A stretch of 64,000 bases of DNA from Micromonospora inaquosa (GTDB taxonomy: Bacteria > Actinomycetota > Actinomycetes > Mycobacteriales > Micromonosporaceae): NCBI RefSeq assembly GCF_003857055.1, contig NZ_QGSZ01000203.1, positions 1-64,000 on the forward strand, given 5' to 3'. The notes beneath the pieces were generated by a model that did no database searches, was not told the origin of the DNA, and was given only the letters and a program-made list of their open reading frames with translations. Numbering within the stretch: the stretch's first letter is position 1; each line of letters opens with the position of its first letter. A program made the position numbers and the translations under genes. Shown piece after piece: positions 29,692-38,169 of the stretch.

Positions 29692-29700
29692 CCGGCTACA

Positions 29701-29764
29701 AAAAAACACACCAGATCGGACGTTGATCGTGTCCAACCTGGTGTGCATCGGTAATACCTGGTGG
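29701..29764. repeat. Left direct repeat (attachment-like, distal copy)
   Basis: 64 bp identical to 37770-37833 except A at 29756 against G at 37825. It contains the CACACCAG...CTGGTGTG hairpin with an A-tract at its left side, so it can act as a terminator for minus-strand transcripts leaving the island, and ends with CCTGGTGG, the complement of a tRNA CCACCA end. It starts ten bases after the ABC permease stop. Confidence 0.8.
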
Positions 29765-29876
29765 AACTCGTGGAGGCCCTTGCACACCCCTGTTGGGAGG
29801 CAAAGAGCCTGCTTGGCATGGCCAGGAAGTGCGCATTAAAACACAAAGGCTCCCAATAGAAACCGGCGAAACGACC

Positions 29877-30656
29877 TCATGCGGCGGGAACCAACTGCTC
29901 CAGGTTCCGCCAGTCCTTGGCCGCCCAGTCCATCAACTGACGCACGCGCTCCTTGCCCTCCTCGACCACGACATCGATGAAGCACTCGCACTTCGTCAGC
30001 TTCCGGCCGTTGATCATGCACACTGCGATGCCCGCGATCTGCATACCTCTCGACACCGCTACGAGCTGCTGATCCCAGGGCAGCGGTATCCGCTTGGCGA
30101 CCTCCTTGCCGAAGACCCTGACCACGCGGGGCGTGCTGAGCCACTCCAACAGAAAGCTCACCAGATCGCCGATCCGGTCATGGAGCCAGTCCTTGCCGTC
30201 CAGGGCGGCACGGGCAAGCCGAGCGAGTCCCTTGCAGTTCCGCCCTGACGAGTCGACCGTCAGCCGGTTCCAGGCCCTGTCGCCCGCGTACCTGGCCGCT
30301 TGAGCTACAGCGGCGTCGACCGCTCCGACCGCCAACGTCGCCTCGAAGTAGTCGACCGCTTCTGCAACCAGCGCGTCCCGCGCTGCGGGTGAGAGCCTAC
30401 GGCGTGGCCGAGCCGAAACCCTGGCTGGACGCGGTGGGCTTGCCGCTCGTCGAGTTCGCGCCGGTGATTTCGGCGTGGCCTTCTTGGGAGACTGCTTGGC
30501 GTACTCGGACAGGCGCTTGCCCGGCGGCACTTCCGGTCGACCGACGTGCTGCGGACACCGCTGGCCGACGCGGCCGACCCGCCGTTGACAGGCACGCCCG
30601 TCCTCGTCACGCGGACCCCGACATTTGATCTTCTGCTTTCGCGGCTTCTGAGCCAT
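29877..30656 (-). CDS. Island protein of unknown function with N-terminal C-C-C-H motif
   Basis: 259 residues from the ATG at 30656. Residues 10-40 carry a Cys-rich motif (KCRG...GRACQRRV...RCPQH), resembling the zinc-binding knuckle of DUF5763-type phage and island proteins. A basic Arg/Pro/Lys-rich linker follows, then a helical C-terminal domain (RNCKGLARLARAALDGKDWLHDRIGDL, QIAGIAVCMINGRKLTKCECFIDVVVEEGKERVRQLM). No catalytic motif was recognised. It is encoded 89 bases downstream of gajB on the same strand and could be an accessory of that defence pair or an unrelated passenger. Confidence 0.65.
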   Translation of the reverse strand: MAQKPRKQKIKCRGPRDEDGRACQRRVGRVGQRCPQHVGRPEVPPGKRLSEYAKQSPKKATPKSPARTRRAASPPRPARVSARPRRRLSPAARDALVAEAVDYFEATLAVGAVDAAVAQAARYAGDRAWNRLTVDSSGRNCKGLARLARAALDGKDWLHDRIGDLVSFLLEWLSTPRVVRVFGKEVAKRIPLPWDQQLVAVSRGMQIAGIAVCMINGRKLTKCECFIDVVVEEGKERVRQLMDWAAKDWRNLEQLVPAA

Positions 30657-30745
30657 AGCCGAACGTAAACAAGCCAACACGCGGCATGACAGTCGCCGGT
30701 CATGTCGGATCTAGGACACGACGCCAGCAGCGACCCCGGAAGTCC

Positions 30746-32743
30746 CTACTCCAATTCAACGACCTTCCAGCCCCGAGACACCAGCTTTTCCTTAGCGGTG
30801 GCTCGCTCACTACTCCCGCCTAGGGACGAGTCCGGAAGAGCAAGACACAACAGATGGCTGGGGCGGGTCATCGCGACGTAAGCGAGGCGCAGACGCTCAC
30901 TGTTGCGAACTCCGATTTTTTGGTCACCACCTGACTTGTCGCCTACGATCCAAGGCATGATAGAACCGAAAAAATGGTCGTGCTTAAATGTCTCAAGTAG
31001 AAGAGTCGCAACGTGGGTTTGACCCTTTACCGCATGTATCGAACTTAGATGGACGTCCACGGTGCGACTAGAGTCCTCGAACTGGTAGATGTTTAAGCGT
31101 GCGTGCGATCCGGGCGCATCGATCGTACTGCCAAAATATTCTTTCCAGTCTAGGTACGCGGATGAATCTCTACTCAAGGGACTGCCGGTAACGGCAAACC
31201 CGAGCTGCATCAAGGATGGCAGCAACACTTTCCATGCTTGTTCAGTCAACGGCTGTCCGTCAAGTACAAATCTGACCAGCACTTCCCGATACAGCTTCCG
31301 AGCGTCAGGGTGAGGCTCAAGCAGTCTTTCAAGTGAGCGATGGGGCCGCAACCCTAGCCTAACGAGAGGTACACTGGCGGCTTGATTGAGGAAGCGAGCA
31401 AACCCCGACGCTACCGCGTCAACGGCTTCGCCGACTGGCAAATTGCTAACCACCATCATTCGAGCCTTCTGGAAACACTCAACTAAATGAGCAGGTGGTG
31501 CTGAGCGCCTAGCCGCCGTCGCTCTGTAGCCATCCCAGTAGTGCGAGACTGTCGCAGGATAATGCGCGTGCCCCGGCTCGACGCCCTCCTTCGCCTTGTG
31601 AACCCAGCCAATCGCACTAACAGTCCCTGCAGCCAGATCCTCATCATCCAAGCAGTGCAACACGTGCGCCGCATAGGCGGGCAAGACGCGACCAACGTCG
31701 TCCTTGGGAAAAATGAATACTGTATGCTGTGGCTCGGGCGGGGATGGGCTGCGTTCCACCCCTTGCAAGCCATTCGGCTCGACTGGCGTAAGGGCCAGAT
31801 TTGATGCCAATGCGGCGATTGAGCCGTCAAACCGGAAACTATTCGGCAGCGCAAGAATGGTTGATTGACGGTCCGGGAAGACGCCTGCGCCAGATTCTCC
31901 ATCGTCCTCAAAGATCGCCTGATTACTGTCGCCCACTCGCTGGACGGTAACTCTCTCGGTATCGCCTCGAAAGAGAGCGTTCAGAAGCTCATACTGCCGA
32001 AGCGAAGTGTCCTGCATCTCATCGATCAATACGAACGGAAAACGACGCGAGAGGATAGCGGAGATCTCTGGATGATCGCGAAGCAGGGCTTCCGCAAAAA
32101 TGAACATCTCATCGTGACAGAAGTAACCCTGCGCGGCCGTCAATCGCATCGCGGCTGCCGTTAGCTGATGAGTGGGTGCTGACGGGGAAGCAGGAAAGTC
32201 CGCGCCAACTAGGGGATTCTCCAGGTCGCTCGAACCGATCCGCAATGATTCAAACTTGCGGCCGCTCTTACTGAGAAAGAACTCCACCTTGGAACACGCG
32301 CCCCCGAGAAGACGCCTTCTAATCGAAGTAGTAATCTCATTATCTACCGCCGTCACCTTGTACCCATTGGACGCCAGCCACGGAACCGCCAAGAACCGGT
32401 TCACGAATCCGTGAATTGTATCAATGTAATGAGGATAGCCTAGGAGGTCATGGCCAACGGCAGCATTTGATAGCCTCCGCTGGATCTCCTCGTGGGCGAC
32501 ATTAGTGTGGGACAGGACACAAACTCCGCGCGTCTGGCTTGCCCACTTTTTGGCGAGAATCGCTAGCTTCGCAACCACGAGTGTCGTCTTGCCGCTCCCC
32601 GGGCATGCAGCAACATCGAGGGTGTCGAGCCGCTGGAGGAATGTACGACGCGGCTCATCCAGGCGATCGAGGCCAAGCAAGTCAACCACCCAAGCAATAT
32701 CGCTATCGCTTACCGAACCCGTAACCGGAGTTTGCTCAGGCAT
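30746..32743 (-). CDS. gajB: Gabija-type helicase GajB (UvrD/PcrA-like SF1)
   Basis: 665 residues. SF1A helicase motifs in order: I CPGSGKTTLV, Ia CVLSHTNVA, II FVLIDEMQDTSLRQYELL, III GDSNQAIFEDDGE, V SSIHAVKGQTHVATLLLE, VI LRLAYVAMTRPSHLL. The ATG overlaps the end of the OLD-family gene by eight bases, so the pair is translated together. An OLD/TOPRIM nuclease with a UvrD-like helicase is the definition of the Gabija system, in which GajB senses or processes DNA ends and works with the GajA complex against phage. GC is much lower than the neighbours, indicating transfer. Confidence 0.88.
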   Translation of the reverse strand: MPEQTPVTGSVSDSDIAWVVDLLGLDRLDEPRRTFLQRLDTLDVAACPGSGKTTLVVAKLAILAKKWASQTRGVCVLSHTNVAHEEIQRRLSNAAVGHDLLGYPHYIDTIHGFVNRFLAVPWLASNGYKVTAVDNEITTSIRRRLLGGACSKVEFFLSKSGRKFESLRIGSSDLENPLVGADFPASPSAPTHQLTAAAMRLTAAQGYFCHDEMFIFAEALLRDHPEISAILSRRFPFVLIDEMQDTSLRQYELLNALFRGDTERVTVQRVGDSNQAIFEDDGESGAGVFPDRQSTILALPNSFRFDGSIAALASNLALTPVEPNGLQGVERSPSPPEPQHTVFIFPKDDVGRVLPAYAAHVLHCLDDEDLAAGTVSAIGWVHKAKEGVEPGHAHYPATVSHYWDGYRATAARRSAPPAHLVECFQKARMMVVSNLPVGEAVDAVASGFARFLNQAASVPLVRLGLRPHRSLERLLEPHPDARKLYREVLVRFVLDGQPLTEQAWKVLLPSLMQLGFAVTGSPLSRDSSAYLDWKEYFGSTIDAPGSHARLNIYQFEDSSRTVDVHLSSIHAVKGQTHVATLLLETFKHDHFFGSIMPWIVGDKSGGDQKIGVRNSERLRLAYVAMTRPSHLLCLALPDSSLGGSSERATAKEKLVSRGWKVVELE

Positions 32744-34748
32744 TCTCTACCTCGCCGGAAGAAGGGCCGCTGTTGCGGGATACATAAGCAATAGCATCAG
32801 CAATGTAGCGAGGCAACCTCGACTTCAGGGCATCCTTGTACCCCGAATCGCGCTCAGCCTCGCCCTCGATGACTTCCACAAGATACTGTGCCGTGACAGC
32901 CTTCGAGACCTGGTCAACCTTGAACAGTCGGTAAATATGTATGCATAGAAGCTCCTGGTCATCGATGCATTGGTTGGTGAGGGCTTTGAACGCGATCTCG
33001 GCGCCAGCGATAACCTCTTCTCGGCTCTTCCGCTCCTCATTGAGTGAATCGTCGTTTTTGGCAAGTAGCGCAGCCGTGTAAACCTCTTCGGCTAGGCCCG
33101 ATTTAGCGAGGTCATACTCCAATGTCCAGTTGTCCGCGACGAAGGTCTTGACGGGCGGGGAATCACCACCGCGAAGCTTTGCTCGTCGAAGCTCGACACC
33201 GTCGCTTTCCGAGACACCTTTAGTGGCGAGGTCCCGCCTGGCCCGCCACCTACGGTAGCGAAGGTCATCCCACTTTGAGTCTGAATCTCCCTCTACCATT
33301 CCGAAAATCTCAGGGGCGCGGTTTGGCATTACATCCAGGTCGGCGAGGCACGCCACCGGGATGGAGGGTTGGGCCTCGGAGGAGTTCTTGCGCTGAAAAA
33401 TCCGCGCGTATCGACGAAGCCCTGTACCGCCAACGTTTAAGATCGAGACCCCGTGTGTGGTCAGATCACAACCAAGCATTCGCGCGAGCGCCGGGATAAC
33501 GATTGCCTCTGCGTCACCTTCTACAACAATCAGCCCACGAGCAAAGAAGAGGTTGGCCCTGGTTGAATCAAGGAATCGCTGAAGAAACCTGTAGTCGCCC
33601 TTTTCAAGCATTGTCTGACCCTCGGCCATTGCGAAGGCTCTTTGCCCTTGCAGAAGGACCAGGTTGTTCAGGGGTATTTTGGATGCGAGGTTGGGGCTAT
33701 GCGTTGTAAGCACAACCTGTACGCTGCGGGAGCCCGGGATGCTTGCCGCTGTCTCCAAGAACTCCATGAGACGAAGTTGACGCTGCGGCTGCAGGTGTGC
33801 TTCAGGTTCCTCGATCAATAGAAGAGGCAACCCTTCGCTCTCGGTACCAAGCAGGAGAAGCTCGCATGCCATGTACAGCAGATTGTTAGACCCCAGCCCA
33901 TATCTTCCCTTGGAGCCTCCGTCTGGTCCCGCCAAAAGGTTGAGCTGGAGCCGTTCGAGAATCTGGCGTAGCCGTGCCTTGTCGGATCCGCTGTCAATGT
34001 AGGAGACGCGCCCATGCAGGTTTTCACCTCCCAGAGCAAGTTTGGAAAGGTAGCGCTCATTGATCGCCGACTGCGCCCCTTGCACCCCTTCGTGTTCATT
34101 GACAAGATGCCGAAAGTACTCCGCCAGACCCGAAAGACTTAAGGCGGATGCTGCCTCGGAGTCGATGGCAGCACCTGGCTCGAAGCTCCGGCCGGAATCA
34201 ATCCCGGGAAATCTGAGTAACACCTGAGACAGTCTCGATCTATTTCCTGGCGCCATTTCCCGCTCGGCATCTCGGAGCGGCTTCAGGTAGGCCGCCGCTA
34301 GTAACTGCCGGGCTTGAAGTTCGATATTCGCCCCTGCGCCGTCCTTGCCACTGCGGACAGACACGTCGGCAAATCGACGGCCGGATTCGGCCAGGGTAAG
34401 ATTCCGGGCACGCCAGTAGACATACAGAGAGAGTTCGCCGTCCTCGTATGTGAGGTGTTCGGCGAAAGCGCCCTTGTCGTCGTCAGAGAGGTCGGAAAGC
34501 CTGCATCGGATGACGCTTTCTGATGCTGGCACTCCGCTTGGATCCACGTGGAAGTCGTCAGGCTGGACCCGCACATGGTCTGTATCGCGCGTAAGGAGGG
34601 CGTAGCGGATCGCGTCGATGATCGCTGTTTTGCCAGAGTCGTTTTCGCCAACGATGGCGGTGACGCCCGGCTTGAAGCTCAGCGTGAACGCAGGGTTAGT
34701 CTTGACGAACTGCCTGAAGTTCTCGATCACAATTTCTGACAAATACAT
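32736..34748 (-). CDS. gajA: Gabija-type nuclease GajA (OLD-family ATPase/TOPRIM)
   Basis: 670 residues. SMC/OLD-type ATPase: IENFRQF, Walker A GENDSGKTA at about 34-42, the ABC-like LLLIEEPEAHLQPQRQL, and VVLTTHSPNLASK. TOPRIM domain: IVVEGDAEAIVIPALA with the metal-binding Glu and ACLADLDVMPN with the D-x-D pair. A helical tail follows. In Gabija, GajA is a sequence-specific nicking endonuclease held inactive by NTPs and released when phage replication depletes them. The ATG at 34748 is the first possible, because a TAG lies just upstream; an AAAGGAG is present but about 13 bases away. Confidence 0.9.
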   Translation of the reverse strand: MYLSEIVIENFRQFVKTNPAFTLSFKPGVTAIVGENDSGKTAIIDAIRYALLTRDTDHVRVQPDDFHVDPSGVPASESVIRCRLSDLSDDDKGAFAEHLTYEDGELSLYVYWRARNLTLAESGRRFADVSVRSGKDGAGANIELQARQLLAAAYLKPLRDAEREMAPGNRSRLSQVLLRFPGIDSGRSFEPGAAIDSEAASALSLSGLAEYFRHLVNEHEGVQGAQSAINERYLSKLALGGENLHGRVSYIDSGSDKARLRQILERLQLNLLAGPDGGSKGRYGLGSNNLLYMACELLLLGTESEGLPLLLIEEPEAHLQPQRQLRLMEFLETAASIPGSRSVQVVLTTHSPNLASKIPLNNLVLLQGQRAFAMAEGQTMLEKGDYRFLQRFLDSTRANLFFARGLIVVEGDAEAIVIPALARMLGCDLTTHGVSILNVGGTGLRRYARIFQRKNSSEAQPSIPVACLADLDVMPNRAPEIFGMVEGDSDSKWDDLRYRRWRARRDLATKGVSESDGVELRRAKLRGGDSPPVKTFVADNWTLEYDLAKSGLAEEVYTAALLAKNDDSLNEERKSREEVIAGAEIAFKALTNQCIDDQELLCIHIYRLFKVDQVSKAVTAQYLVEVIEGEAERDSGYKDALKSRLPRYIADAIAYVSRNSGPSSGEVENA

Positions 34749-35210
34749 GGTCTAGATGAATCTCCTTTGGGATGGCGTTGCGGCACTGACCCGCAGCCGA
34801 CAGGCAACACGGACAGCAGGGAGTGCCCGTGCGCCCCAGCGGAGGGCGGTGCTCGGTTAGTTGATCTTCGTAAGTTGATATTGAAATGCTTGCCGCGCCA
34901 GTCAAGATCGATAAGGCGCATTCATTTCTGCGTCTGGGGTGAGGCGCGACGGTAATCAGCCAGGCGAGTCAGATCAAGTTACTCACTGGTTCGGCGTGGC
35001 GGACGTTTCTCACGGCGGGCCGCGACGGTATTGGCGCACCCGCACCTCTTGATCAACGAGAAGTCACGACGCCAGGGGCGATGCCCGGGGCTCCGGCTTG
35101 CCAGACCTTCACCATATGCAATCGGACGTCTACTCCTTGACGCCATCCATGCCTGCCCTCAGGATGGCCACGTCGCAACATCCCGCAACCGTCAGGACAG
35201 GGAGTGGACC
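34749..35210. other. Intergenic region between divergent gajA and the DUF6879/XRE set
   Basis: 462 bases without a supported gene. It must hold the minus-strand promoter of gajA and the plus-strand promoter of the regulator trio. Short frames here lack ribosome sites and coding bias. No clear operator or RNA gene was seen. Confidence 0.5.
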
Positions 35211-35429
35211 ATGCGCCTAACGTTGATCGGTAAGGATCCGGAGTCGAACCCGACCGGCTCGCCCACGGTGTACCGCACTGACCGGGAGAGCTGGGTGGTG
35301 CAGGGTTGGGTGGTGTCGGATCCGACGGTGTTGGCCCAGATGAGCATCCCGGAAGGTGAGTCCTGCGTGGAGATCCCGGACCGGATGCTCCAGTTCTTCA
35401 GGCAGGGGGATCGTGACCTCGATCAGTGA
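35211..35429 (+). CDS. Small conserved protein preceding a DUF6879 gene (72 aa)
   Basis: 72 residues, beginning MRLTLIGKDPESNPTGSPT and ending in FFRQGDRDLDQ. The ATG at 35211 follows GGGAGTGG. This type of ~70-residue acidic protein commonly precedes a DUF6879 gene and an XRE-DUF5753 regulator in actinomycete genomes; the function is unknown. Its stop lies 14 bases inside the next gene. The charge and length suggest a partner protein for one of the two downstream products. Confidence 0.72.
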   Translation: MRLTLIGKDPESNPTGSPTVYRTDRESWVVQGWVVSDPTVLAQMSIPEGESCVEIPDRMLQFFRQGDRDLDQ

Positions 35430-35931
35430 GGCTCAGTTCGAGCGGCTGTTGGTGACCTTCGAGCGCAATGCCATCCACCTGGAGACGCGCGACGCCTACG
35501 GCACAGGGGTCGAATTGCCGCACATGGCCAAATGGGCCGCTGGTGAGCCGGACGACCTGGCATGGCTGGAAAGCTGGTGCGAGAGTTTGCGCGAGCACGT
35601 CAAAGCAGGGCGGTCGGTTCGCCGGGCACGCATCGTCTCTGAGCCACTGAGCGACTATCAGCGCTGGTCGTACAGCATCGCGCAGCCCATGGTGGACGCC
35701 GGCGAGGACATCCGCTGGGTGCCGCGTCGGCTGGCGTCATCGCTGGCGCTGCCCGGCAATGACTACTACCTGTTCGACGACCGCCTGGCGGTCTTCCTGA
35801 TCTACGCGGGGAACGGTTTGGCTATGGATCGGGTGGCGTCCACCGACCCTGCTGACCTCAAGTTGTGCCGCTCCGCGTTCGAGGCCGTCTGGCAGTTGGC
35901 TGTCCCGCACCGTGACTACCAACCCGTCTAG
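35413..35931 (+). CDS. DUF6879-like protein
   Basis: 172 residues from the GTG at 35413 (GGGGA just before it), matching the DUF6879 type: FERNAIHLETRDAYGT near the N-terminus, SLREHVKAGRSVRRARIVSEPLSDYQRWSY, and late DYYLFDDRLAVFLIYAGNG. Overlaps the 72-residue gene and the following XRE gene. The family has no established biochemical role but is regularly found beside XRE-DUF5753 regulators, often in mobile regions and developmental loci. Confidence 0.8.
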   Translation: MTSISEAQFERLLVTFERNAIHLETRDAYGTGVELPHMAKWAAGEPDDLAWLESWCESLREHVKAGRSVRRARIVSEPLSDYQRWSYSIAQPMVDAGEDIRWVPRRLASSLALPGNDYYLFDDRLAVFLIYAGNGLAMDRVASTDPADLKLCRSAFEAVWQLAVPHRDYQPV

Positions 35932-36766
35932 CGCTGACCGCCAAGGCCAAGAGGCGCTCGGCGTCCGCCTCCGTGAGCTGCGTAAGGAAGCAGGGCTCAC
36001 GGGGCGGGCGCTGGCGGCCTTGACCGGCCAGCATTTCACCCGCGTGAGCAAGATCGAGCATGGCGTGCAGCCGCCGACTGACCATGACATCCGGGTCTGG
36101 TGTCGGGTGTGCAACGCCGAAGACCAGGCCCCGGACCTGACCGCTACGCTGCGGGCGGTCGAATCGGCGTACATAGAGTTCCGGCGCCAAAGCCGAGCGG
36201 GCATGAAGCGAGTGCTCGGCGCGCACACCCTTGGCCTGTACGAGCAGACCTCGGTGTTCCGGATCTATGAACACAACGCCATCCCCGGACTGTTCCAGAC
36301 CGCCGACTATACGGCGGCGATGCTGTCGTTCTGGATCGACTTTCTGGAGACGCCGAACGACCTGGACGAGGCCGTGGCGGTGCGGATGGAGCGTCAGCGG
36401 GTGCTCTACCAGCGGGGCAAGCGGTTCGTGGTGGTGCTGGAGGAGCAGGCGCTGCGTACCTGGTTCGGGGACGCCGCCACCCAGGCCGGGCAACTGGACC
36501 GGCTGCTCGCGGTGATGTCCCTGCCCACCGTCTCGGTGGGCGTCATCCCCCTGATGACCGAACGCCCGGCAGTCGCGTCCACCGGCTTTTGGATCTTCGA
36601 CAACCTGCTGGTCGCCTTAGAGACGCCCACAGCGAGCATCGAGGTCACCCGACCGCACGAGATCGAGCTGTACGCCCGGATGTTCGACCGCCTCCAGGTC
36701 TCGGCTGTGTACGGCCCGGAGGCGCGGGCGTTAATCGGCCGCACGATCGATCAACTCGACCAGTAG
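35912..36766 (+). CDS. XRE-family regulator with DUF5753 domain
   Basis: 284 residues. HTH_3 at about 15-75 (LGVRLRELRKEAGLTGRALAALTGQHFTRVSKIEHGVQPPT), then DUF5753 from about 105 (YEHNAIPGLFQTADYTAAML, RMERQRVLYQRGKRFVVVLEEQALR, ARMFDRLQ). The GTG at 35912 lies within the end of the DUF6879 gene. Members such as BldB-linked regulators in Streptomyces control neighbouring small genes. Here it could regulate the trio or the divergent gajA. Its G+C is higher than that of gajAB, so it may have a separate origin. Confidence 0.85.
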   Translation: MTTNPSSADRQGQEALGVRLRELRKEAGLTGRALAALTGQHFTRVSKIEHGVQPPTDHDIRVWCRVCNAEDQAPDLTATLRAVESAYIEFRRQSRAGMKRVLGAHTLGLYEQTSVFRIYEHNAIPGLFQTADYTAAMLSFWIDFLETPNDLDEAVAVRMERQRVLYQRGKRFVVVLEEQALRTWFGDAATQAGQLDRLLAVMSLPTVSVGVIPLMTERPAVASTGFWIFDNLLVALETPTASIEVTRPHEIELYARMFDRLQVSAVYGPEARALIGRTIDQLDQ

Positions 36767-37057
36767 CTTCGCAACACTTCGCAACATCGTGGACGCCGTT
36801 GCTGGCTCGCTCATACCGTCATCGCGGAACTTCGGTAAGACGGATGCCGGGTACGAACGGCGGCCGTTGCAGTGGATCCGACGACAGCACCAAGCCGGAT
36901 GCCCATTGGTAACGGACGAACGGCCGACCACTCGCCCAGCCATGACGCATCAACGTCTGCCCGTTCGATGACGAGGTTCCCTTGAGGCTGCCGGACGGCC
37001 CCGCGGCAACGGTGTCCGTCTGGCAGCCACCCTCAAGCAGGCGAAGGGTGACCCGTG
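36767..37057. other. Gene-free stretch inside the island
   Basis: 291 bases between the XRE gene and two small genes. Short frames occur on both strands but none has a ribosome site or recognisable product. No repeat or hairpin stands out. Confidence 0.4.
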
Positions 37058-37258
37058 ATGACGTTTGGTGCACTGATCAGCGCCGTACTTCTGGGATTCA
37101 TAACAGGATTGCTCAGCTTCAAGGTCAAGCAGCGATGGTGCCCGGAGTGCGGAGCATCCACTCTGCGAGAGGTGCCAGCCGACGTTCGTAGACCGCGGAA
37201 TTCAACTCCCAGCGCGGCGGGTGCGTTCGCTCGTCAGCACGATGACCGCGAGCGGTAG
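37058..37258 (+). CDS. Small membrane protein with CxxC (66 aa)
   Basis: 66 residues: one hydrophobic helix (FGALISAVLLGFITGLLSF) then VKQRWCPECGAS, a zinc-ribbon-like CxxC just inside the membrane, and a polar tail. AAGGGTGA lies upstream, and a GTG directly before the ATG is an alternative start. Small proteins of this pattern are frequent in actinomycete phages and integrative elements; the function is unknown. Overlaps the next reading frame. Confidence 0.6.
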   Translation: MTFGALISAVLLGFITGLLSFKVKQRWCPECGASTLREVPADVRRPRNSTPSAAGAFARQHDDRER

Positions 37259-37514
37259 GCCGAGCAAACGCCACGAACACCTGCCTGCCTCGCTGGAGCC
37301 GCCGACTCCCAAGCCGGGCGATGTCCTGCAGATCGGCGGGGCCGCGAGCGTCCAGTTTGCGGGCGACCGGGGGTTCCGGTTCAAAGTCATCCAGGCCTGC
37401 CCGAAGCCGACCTACTGGGGATGGCTGTGGCTCACGGGGTACGTGCTCGATGGAAAGGGGCAGGCCACTGAGCGGCGAGAGATTTTTGTGCAGCGGGAAG
37501 GGTTAAGGCGGTAG
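37221..37514 (+). CDS. Small island protein of unknown function (about 90-97 aa)
   Basis: Starts at the GTG at 37221 or the ATG at 37242; neither has a convincing ribosome site. The conserved-looking part is PKPGDVLQIGGAASVQFAGDRGFRFKVIQ...WGWLWLTGYVLDGKGQATERREIFVQ, a small all-beta fold by eye. It overlaps the CxxC membrane protein by up to 38 bases, so the two are probably one transcript. Similar pairs occur near actinomycete integrative elements by recollection only. Confidence 0.55.
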   Translation: MRSLVSTMTASGRPSKRHEHLPASLEPPTPKPGDVLQIGGAASVQFAGDRGFRFKVIQACPKPTYWGWLWLTGYVLDGKGQATERREIFVQREGLRR

Positions 37515-37769
37515 ATCGGGTCAGATTCTGGAGGGTGCCCTGGTGGTCGTTGGCTCCTGTCGGCGTCATGAGGCCGCAGTTCGCGCTACCGCTCCGACAT
37601 CAGATCAAGCAGGGGCTTTCAAGAAGCTCTACTGACCAAACAGGAGCATCGAACGGTGCGATCTGAGAGGACCGCTCCGGCAGCTTCTCGAAACGGCTGC
37701 CCGCAGGTCCTCAGCTCGACGCAGAGACGTCGCTCCGATGGTCGAATCGCCAGAGGGCGAACTTGATCC

Positions 37770-37833
37770 AAAAAACACACCAGATCGGACGTTGATCGTG
37801 TCCAACCTGGTGTGCATCGGTAATGCCTGGTGG
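37770..37833. repeat. Right direct repeat (attachment-like, tRNA-proximal copy)
   Basis: 64 bp matching 29701-29764 with one mismatch. Its right end (37828-37833) is the CCA end and last three bases of the tRNA-Val gene on the minus strand, so insertion preserved an intact tRNA. The rest is the tRNA terminator. Confidence 0.82.
37776..37814 (-). terminator. Terminator of the tRNA-Val transcript
   Basis: On the minus strand CACACCAG pairs with CTGGTGTG (8 bp, loop with an inner GGAC/GTCC pairing), followed by six T (37770-37775). It serves the Gly-Val tRNA unit. The same hairpin is present in the left repeat at 29707-29745. Confidence 0.7.
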
Positions 37834-37902
37834 GCGATACTGGGTTTGAACCAGTGACCTCTTCCGTGTCAGGGAAGCGCGCTCCCACTGCGCCAATCGC
37901 CC
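37831..37902 (-). tRNA. tRNA-Val (anticodon GAC)
   Basis: Cloverleaf read on minus: acceptor GGGCGAT/ATCGCCC, D-arm GGCGCAGTGGGAGC, anticodon stem CTTCC/GGAAG with loop CTGACAC (anticodon GAC), T-arm GGTTCAAACC. CCA is encoded (37828-37830). It is the target of the island insertion. A near-identical copy lies at 40592. Confidence 0.95.
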
Positions 37903-37950
37903 GTGGCGACCGCCGAACCCGGCAGCCAAGCCCCAAGGGGGCGGATCGCG

Positions 37951-38023
37951 AGCGGACGACGGGATTCGAACCCGCGACCCTCACCTTGGCAAGGTGATGC
38001 GCTACCAGCTGCGCTACGTCCGC
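37951..38023 (-). tRNA. tRNA-Gly (anticodon GCC)
   Basis: Minus-strand cloverleaf: acceptor GCGGACG/CGTCCGC, anticodon stem CACCTT/AAGGTG around GCC, T-loop GGTTCGAATCC. It precedes tRNA-Val with a 48-base gap in the same transcript. A TAGGGT -10-like hexamer (complement at 38054-38059) lies about 31 bases upstream of the 5' end. The same tRNA is repeated at 40782. Confidence 0.95.
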
Positions 38024-38169
38024 ACGTCCCCGACTCGCGTCGGCGACAGGTGAACCCTACCCGATGCCAAGATCGCTTGGCACGGCACCCCGACGGTCGC
38101 GGTTGCGCCGCTCCCTCCCGGGGTAATGAGGGGCTCGACAGCGCACCACACCCCCTTAAGGAGGCTGTC

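Follow-up and report, generated by a model that had tools for sequence, protein, structure and literature searches.

An island of defence genes lies at the 3' end of a tRNA-Val(GAC) gene in the genome of Micromonospora inaquosa, between positions 29701 and 37833 of the stretch of 64,000 nucleotides analysed here (contig NZ_QGSZ01000203.1, referred to below as the window). It carries a Gabija gene pair, and very probably it derives by deletion from an integrative, probably mobilisable, element, now immobile, which a large serine recombinase (LSR) had inserted at the CCA end of that tRNA gene. Gabija, integrative elements and the decay of such elements are already known; what the surviving ends of this island suggest is how elements of this kind use many tRNA genes as landing sites. 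In what follows, G-codes denote genomes and L-codes loci extracted from them; the source genome itself, G000, is a draft in 408 contigs.

An LSR vestige and a fuller relative of the element

A relative of the island is found in Micromonospora wenchangensis (G180), where a fuller element of about 20.7 kb occupies the same tRNA-Val gene, with the same end genes and other cargo. Its LSR is complete, with Resolvase, Recombinase and zinc-ribbon domains, and is followed, reading inward from the tRNA gene, by a 227-residue frame, a DNA methylase, a Replic_Relax protein (match at 6.6e-44) and a coupling-protein-like ATPase (two coupling-protein profiles over the cut-off, FtsK below it). Deeper in the element come a 609-residue frame without a family and then homologues of three proteins of the window, namely the 97-residue frame (72% identity), the XRE-type regulator (94%) and the DUF6879 protein (90%); the cargo follows these, and the left end is a homologue of the 267-residue frame (83%). 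The two elements are collinear over window positions 29758–30718, 35106–36756, 36735–37502 and 37522–38076, at 71.5–88.7% identity, and the alignment is broken at two places: at the cargo slot, and at a joint (its position read by eye) that lacks about 10.5 kb of the G180 backbone.

No intact LSR gene is present in the window, only the vestige of the 3' end of one, the intact copy being that of G180. The vestige is recognisable through a further strain, G143, in which the DNA to the left of its repeat encodes the C-terminal part of an LSR: window positions 37522–37689, when translated, share 28 of 59 residues with this C-terminus (E = 6e-8 in the 64-kb window, with one in-frame stop), while at the DNA level 37522–37833 is 71% identical to G143 across 330 columns, repeat included. 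Among the 160 genomes of the genus that were searched, the LSR C-terminus was matched in six (G000 through the vestige only), and the left end of the element gave long matches in four, G000, G119, G143 and G180; 60 genomes match the left end at E ≤ 0.001, the other matches listed being of 87 bases or fewer and taken as chance. Both ends of the element adjoin the same tRNA gene on one contig in G180 and G119, and on two contigs in G143.

The original prediction, made from the letters of the stretch alone, had found no integrase, and had supposed either that the unit moves with a recombinase supplied in trans or that it has lost its own. The contig of the window is indeed without matches to tyrosine integrases (PF00589; 20 matches in G000) and to PF07508 (five in G000, all on other contigs), and no relaxase-like or integrase gene was matched by Pfam or NCBIfam among the island frames scanned; what had been overlooked is the LSR vestige at 37522–37769, as well as the make-up of most of the repeat (58 of its 64 bases, described below). 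Loss of the unit's own recombinase is supported by this vestige together with the intact element of G180. The features on which the argument draws are as follows.

29692–29700, no strand: last host bases past the stop of the FtsX-like permease gene; CCGGCTAC is common to the empty site of G002, after which the match breaks (from sequence)
29701–29764, minus: left 64-bp copy, comprising a terminator-like hairpin, a 19-nt LSR P half-site and the core TGGTGG (29759–29764)
29765–29788, no strand: P' half-site (conserved in G119, G143 and G180), which forms the element's true left end
29877–30680, minus: 267-residue backbone protein (orf267), with 83–94% amino acid identity in G180, G143 and G119
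30719–35105, no strand: cargo slot, without a blastn match to G180 (which has other cargo there, between the same neighbours)
30746–32743, minus: GajB, UvrD/Rep-type helicase of Gabija (PADLOC, Pfam, motifs)
32736–34748, minus: GajA, OLD-type ATPase with TOPRIM nuclease domain (PADLOC, Pfam, motifs)
35356–35931, plus: DUF6879 protein of the element backbone, 89.5% amino acid identity in G180
35912–36766, plus: XRE-type regulator with DUF5753, element backbone, 93.6% in G180
37221–37514, plus: 97-residue backbone protein, 72% in G180, partly kept in G119
37503–37521, no strand: deletion joint, with about 10.5 kb of G180 backbone missing
37522–37769, plus: vestige of the LSR gene 3' end, with an in-frame TGA
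37770–37833, minus: right 64-bp copy (attR side), comprising an element-borne terminator-like hairpin, a P half-site and the core TGGTGG (37828–37833)
37834–37852, no strand: B' half-site within tRNA-Val, its outer end being the T-arm (GGTTTGAACC, plus strand)
37828–37902, minus: tRNA-Val(GAC), the insertion target

Repeats and junctions

The repeats at 29701–29764 and 37770–37833 are each of 64 bp, agree at 63 of 64 positions and lie 8,069 bp apart from start to start, just as had been described, and the right one joins the 3' end of the tRNA-Val gene, again as described; the overlap with the gene (c37828–37902) is only the six bases TGGTGG, corresponding to the CCACCA 3' end of the tRNA. The other 58 repeated bases consist of a terminator-like hairpin and an LSR half-site. 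The two hairpins of the window fold at −30.6 and −28.2 kcal/mol, with none of 200 shuffles equally stable; a consensus terminator scan flagged neither of them, probably since it allows loops of up to 8 nt and theirs are of 9. At the right end of the element such a hairpin would act as the new terminator of the tRNA gene.

Left and right junctions have the core TGGTGG in common in G119, G143 and G180, and over the 57 nt preceding it the two junctions of each strain agree at 17, 14 and 14 positions respectively, as against 56 in G000. The left flanks of these relatives match DNA found beside the same tRNA-Val gene in other strains (that of G180 in G031, that of G119 in G001, that of G143 in G007 and G035). 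Because these left flanks are host DNA and the junctions share only TGGTGG, the recombination core can be put at some six bases, the remainder of the window's repeat belonging to the right end of the element. The 19-nt half-site recurs in the LSR relatives, the window copies matching other element-type sites at 6–16 of 19 positions and nine native sites at 2–8 (the site of G160 fits only when shifted by 1 nt, by eye). At the left end of the island, what comes after these 19 nt is the left half-site of the element itself, and the junction is identical at 40 of 50 positions to an attP rebuilt from G180. Judged from its sequence, then, the left junction is attP-like rather than attL, and the right one attR-like.

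The target site itself was followed in relatives by searching the tRNA-Val/tRNA-Gly region in 61 genomes, all of which gave some match, and by reading 29 relative loci, up to 1.5 kb each. The FtsX-like gene lies within 1.5 kb of the tRNA gene in five of the 29. In four (G002, G024, G028 and G029) the site is empty, with roughly 85–120 bp between the two genes; in G033 the distance is about 1 kb. An empty site with a single copy of the repeat had been proposed as a check of the island: the empty sites exist, and the 64-bp sequence is absent from all four, each bearing another hairpin-forming stretch instead. A search for the repeat in 160 genomes of the genus found it, besides G000, in G143, G160 and G162 at 83–85% identity, always adjoining the same tRNA gene; this number of genomes is a lower bound, as G119 has the hairpin and was missed. 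More generally, the DNA on the 3' side of this tRNA-Val gene, hairpins included, varies widely among members of the genus (L006–L034), and looks as if it had been replaced repeatedly by incoming elements. In G162 (L046 492–4946) and G160 (L048 12654–16870) an AfsR-like frame of 1,108 residues and an NlpC/P60-like frame of 297 residues (names given by eye) stand between the FtsX gene and tRNA-Val, and searches of these loci with island proteins matched nothing but the flanking genes; beside a hairpin of the element's type, these frames are perhaps an old scar or cargo.

How the island may have become stranded

On the favoured history, the LSR of the element would have inserted it at the CCA end of tRNA-Val(GAC), using TGGTGG as core, and about 10.5 kb would have been lost from the element, so that no more than the 3' end of the LSR gene remains and Gabija occupies the cargo slot. 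The left 64-bp copy would be the right end of a second, now lost, copy of the same element. Two routes could lead to such an arrangement, either the tandem insertion of two copies or entry beside the scar of an earlier copy; in both, the outer part would then have been deleted, from just behind the FtsX gene to the hairpin, taking with it the host spacer and the first copy. The tandem and older-scar routes yield the same product and are indistinguishable on present data.

Serine integrases, according to the available text of PMC3783163, recombine only attP with attB, or attL with attR when a directionality factor is present; an LSR acting in trans should therefore not excise the unit, because attP and attR form no working pair. 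The unit could still be deleted by homologous recombination of one 64-bp copy with the other. Movement by a recombinase supplied in trans is accordingly disfavoured, both by the attP-like left junction and by the failure to find a cognate LSR in the draft: the search of the rest of the genome for an integrase, also suggested in the original prediction, gave nothing with the LSR C-terminal query, and of the five PF07508 loci four have no similarity to the G180 LSR and the fifth a similarity of 22.7%. Two of these five, L073 (contig C154, at tRNA-Leu) and L076 (C81, at tRNA-Arg), have a tRNA gene at the 3' side of the recombinase gene; they show no clear kinship to the G180 LSR and no GGTTYGAA at −19 (by eye).

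Several points count against the history just outlined. The two-insertion history has been seen in no strain; the LSR vestige is short (59 aligned residues) and interrupted by a stop; and with a draft assembly of 408 contigs, faulty joining is a conceivable source of the 64-bp repeat. The rebuilt 50-bp attP is no more mirror-symmetric than shuffles (of 2000 shuffles, 235 and 238 were as symmetric), and the ranges of agreement over the 19-nt half-site, 6–16 for element-type and 2–8 for native sites, overlap through G160 (6–7) and G157 (8).

The closest competitor, which stands a fair chance of being right though somewhat short of even, is that the 64-bp repeat was made when a copy of the element, in circular or linear form, underwent homologous recombination with an older terminator scar next to tRNA-Val. 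It differs from the best explanation only in how the second copy entered, and the product it predicts is identical to the one observed. The scar is perhaps seen alone in G160 and G162, where one copy of this hairpin type adjoins the same tRNA gene without the island proteins searched; these copies, however, are 78–87% alike to those of the window (in different alignments), as against one difference in 64 between the window copies themselves, and the scar must therefore derive from a near-identical element.

A classical tRNA island is improbable by comparison. Here a tyrosine recombinase would have used the 64 bp as its core, with the integrase now in trans or lost. In its favour are the direct repeats, which are nearly identical and end at the 3' end of a tRNA gene, and the tyrosine-integrase matches (20) on other G000 contigs. 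However, only six bases of the repeat lie inside the tRNA gene, related insertions share just TGGTGG at the junction, and the gene remnant adjoining the right repeat is that of an LSR. Least probable of all is a phage satellite mobilised by a helper phage, for, notwithstanding the defence cargo, the small size, the lack of a recombinase of its own and the existence of LSR-bearing satellites (PLE, the phage-inducible chromosomal island-like element, in the available part of PMC6002521), the intact relative G180 has conjugation-type genes, no DNA match was found in 50,697 phage records (close-match search), and orf267 and the LSR had no relatives in viral contigs (close-relative search).

A plasmid origin was also tried and rejected: matches were found in 31 plasmid records, 30 of them at 60–80% identity and one at 80–90%, but in no case did they cover more than 80% of the query; those listed are to Gabija, DUF6879 or unannotated stretches. 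A plasmid search for orf267 found none.

The Gabija pair and the changing cargo

The gajB and gajA genes are adjacent on the minus strand, overlap by eight bases and are open over their full length. GajA scores 631.9 bits with its PADLOC profile across residues 1–660, with Pfam matches to AAA_15 and OLD-like_TOPRIM and with Walker A and TOPRIM motifs; GajB scores 559.4 bits across residues 10–662, with a UvrD-helicase match and helicase motifs. The identification as Gabija in the original prediction, overlap included, is thereby upheld, and the pair would be expected to work as a Gabija anti-phage system, that is, a nucleotide-gated nuclease with a helicase. Equally sound was the remark that the genes are lower in GC than their surroundings: the figure is 56.8% for the Gabija slot (56.7% for the cargo slot of G180), 63–65% for the three remaining parts of the island and 72–75% for the 10-kb flanks. 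Overall, the observation of the island is confirmed and its earlier interpretation partly supported. Among the other island genes, the 267-residue backbone protein has no match in Pfam, PADLOC or NCBIfam.

The corresponding loci in relatives carry other genes. In G143 (L047 640–3986, on contig C16) a cyclase of the cyclic-oligonucleotide-based anti-phage signalling system (CBASS) and a 2TM effector stand near the right end, beside an LSR remnant at the same tRNA-Val gene, together with a 581-residue protein without a PADLOC match; this locus is a second stranded defence island. In G180 the cargo following the DUF6879 homologue comprises a 304-residue protein, weakly Mrr-like (below cut-off), and a 1,484-residue protein, which matches NACHT/STAND and HEAT-like profiles weakly and PDC-M54A of PADLOC in part; the latter gene lies on contig C69 at L078 1272–5726, and its Mrr-like neighbour at L068 18129–19043, and the two are a possible defence pair. 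A related LSR locus in G157 (L071 4509–7616) has a CBASS-like trio, 33% and 29% identical to the G143 cyclase and effector and 54% to the 581-residue protein; its half-site is present, and no tRNA gene was found in 19.9 kb. In G119 (L116 1953–3444, C53) the element is a relic of 1,487 bp from core to core, in which both junctions are kept and the cargo, the regulators and nearly the whole LSR are lost. An island such as that of the window represents one way in which a defence system becomes fixed in a genome, through loss of the mobility genes around it.

A T-arm-like motif and the choice of target

To see which sites are used by LSRs of this kind, 397 genomes of the order were searched with the G180 LSR; 44 gave a match at E ≤ 1e-60, and the 30 LSR loci listed were read (identity 32–100%, with G180 and G143 included, so that the sample is one of relatives of the G180 LSR). 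In 25 of the 30 a tRNA gene lies downstream of the LSR gene on the opposite strand, with its 3' end facing it, and in three more it is the 3' end of a tmRNA gene that is faced; of the remaining two, L137 ends at a contig end, and L122 is without a tRNA or tmRNA gene. Upstream of the LSR gene, where up to 1.5 kb was examined, a tRNA gene was found at none of the 30. Eight tRNA types serve as targets: Val, Leu, Pro, Glu, Arg, Lys, Ala and Ser.

When ten further loci were added, a tRNA site was present in 30 of 40, and 25 sites were anchored on CCA (L134 and L135 wrongly so). In 22 of the 25 the motif GGTTYGAA, with up to two mismatches, starts exactly 19 nt before CCA; L093 and L139 are without it. 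By eye, the tmRNA sites L140 and L141 bear GGTTCGAG at −19, while L136 has GGTTCGAA at the equivalent place and no TGG. The half-site 8-mer was also compared with the T-arm of the tRNA gene at its own locus, using 23 of the 25 distinct sites (L134 and L135 being dropped for their wrong CCA anchor): 138 of 184 positions agree at one offset, against 89 at the next offset and 76 in the best of 2000 shuffles. Measured to the start of TGGTGG on the right side, the P' motif ends at 30 bases and the B' motif, in the tRNA gene, at 25; such a shift of 5 bp between attP and attB would fit on this side only.

The fixed spacing of the motif argues for a protein-binding site. The reading proposed here is that LSRs of the group recognise tRNA genes by the T-arm, a GGTTCGAA-like sequence that recurs in one half of their own attP; the zinc-ribbon domain may be the reader. 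With the T-arm copied in the attP half and the core in the CCA end, one mode of recognition would fit almost any tRNA or tmRNA gene. On balance the evidence leans, if not strongly, towards a joint reading in which this actinobacterial LSR group are tRNA generalists, with an attP half-site that copies the universal T-arm (GGTTCGAA), a core in the CCA end and a replacement terminator brought along; in which the recombinase decayed and the defence genes stayed in no fewer than two lineages, those of the window and of G143; and in which, in Micromonospora, the elements carry changing defence cargo, be it Gabija, CBASS or a STAND-type protein.

Some observations sit uneasily with the generalist reading. 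Eight native left halves are without GGTTYGAA at −14, the place expected of a B motif displaced by 5 (4–7 mismatches of 8). The GGTTT of the half-site forms the base of the hairpin stem, so that its conservation may partly serve the terminator, and the LSR loci are related by descent, so that the counts are not of independent events. Taken further, the first two of these lead to the rival view that conservation of GGTTYGAA in the attP half reflects the terminator stem only, the preference for tRNA genes having some other cause. The pairing of GGTTT with AAACC at the hairpin base in several sites, like the native left halves lacking the motif, would suit this view; neither the position of the motif at exactly −19 in most anchored sites nor a T-arm match at one offset far above shuffles does so, and it must be thought rather unlikely, if well worth bearing in mind.

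If true, the T-arm rule would explain target switching by these LSRs under a single rule of recognition. Short LSR cores make islands hard to delimit, and a readable half-site code would let hidden ones be mapped; the group could also yield integration tools with widely shared landing sites.

Comparison with known systems

As regards its cargo, the island resembles known Gabija systems in having both genes, with full-length profile matches, key motifs, adjacency and overlap; it differs in that what remains of an LSR element has the pair in its cargo slot, and its anti-phage activity is a prediction. As regards its architecture, an integrative and mobilisable element (IME) combines a relaxase-like gene with an integrase, and in a cis-mobilisable element (CIME) attL and attR surround a unit without recombination genes. 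Actinomycete integrative and conjugative elements are marked by an FtsK/TraB-type translocase and a Rep protein; the ATPase of G180 passes the cut-off of coupling-protein profiles and stays below that of FtsK. The island is likewise a deletion derivative with ends and cargo kept and recombination genes lost, and its intact relative in G180 has integrase, relaxase-like and coupling-protein-like genes. The pair of attL and attR expected of a CIME was not found in the window, where the left end is attP-like rather than attL, so that the usual att pair is missing.

In the titles and abstract openings of the open-access literature searched, no description of T-arm reading by serine recombinases was found, nor any LSR group that uses many tRNA genes with a T-arm-like half-site. 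For the A118-type serine integrase, the available text of PMC3783163 gives an attP half-site of 25 bp and has the motif that is recognised lie closer to the centre, by 5 bp, in attB. On the right side, the 30 bases of P' and the 25 of B' differ by as much here; what is different is that the attB motif would be the tRNA T-arm and that the left B half is without such a motif. In Mycobacterium abscessus, 16 of 23 tyrosine-integrase attB sites lie in tRNA or tmRNA genes, and the accessible part of that study (PMC10654092) names none for its six serine sites. Insertion of the LSR type at tRNA genes has itself been described, for the actinomycete integrative and conjugative elements (AICEs) of Mycobacterium in tRNA-Leu and for phage phiRSM1 in tRNA-Ser, in the portion of PMC3218068 available, where such use of tRNA genes by serine recombinases was called rare in 2011. 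These cases share with the present one an LSR acting at a tRNA gene; what was rare there appears here as a group with eight tRNA types, and tmRNA, among its targets.

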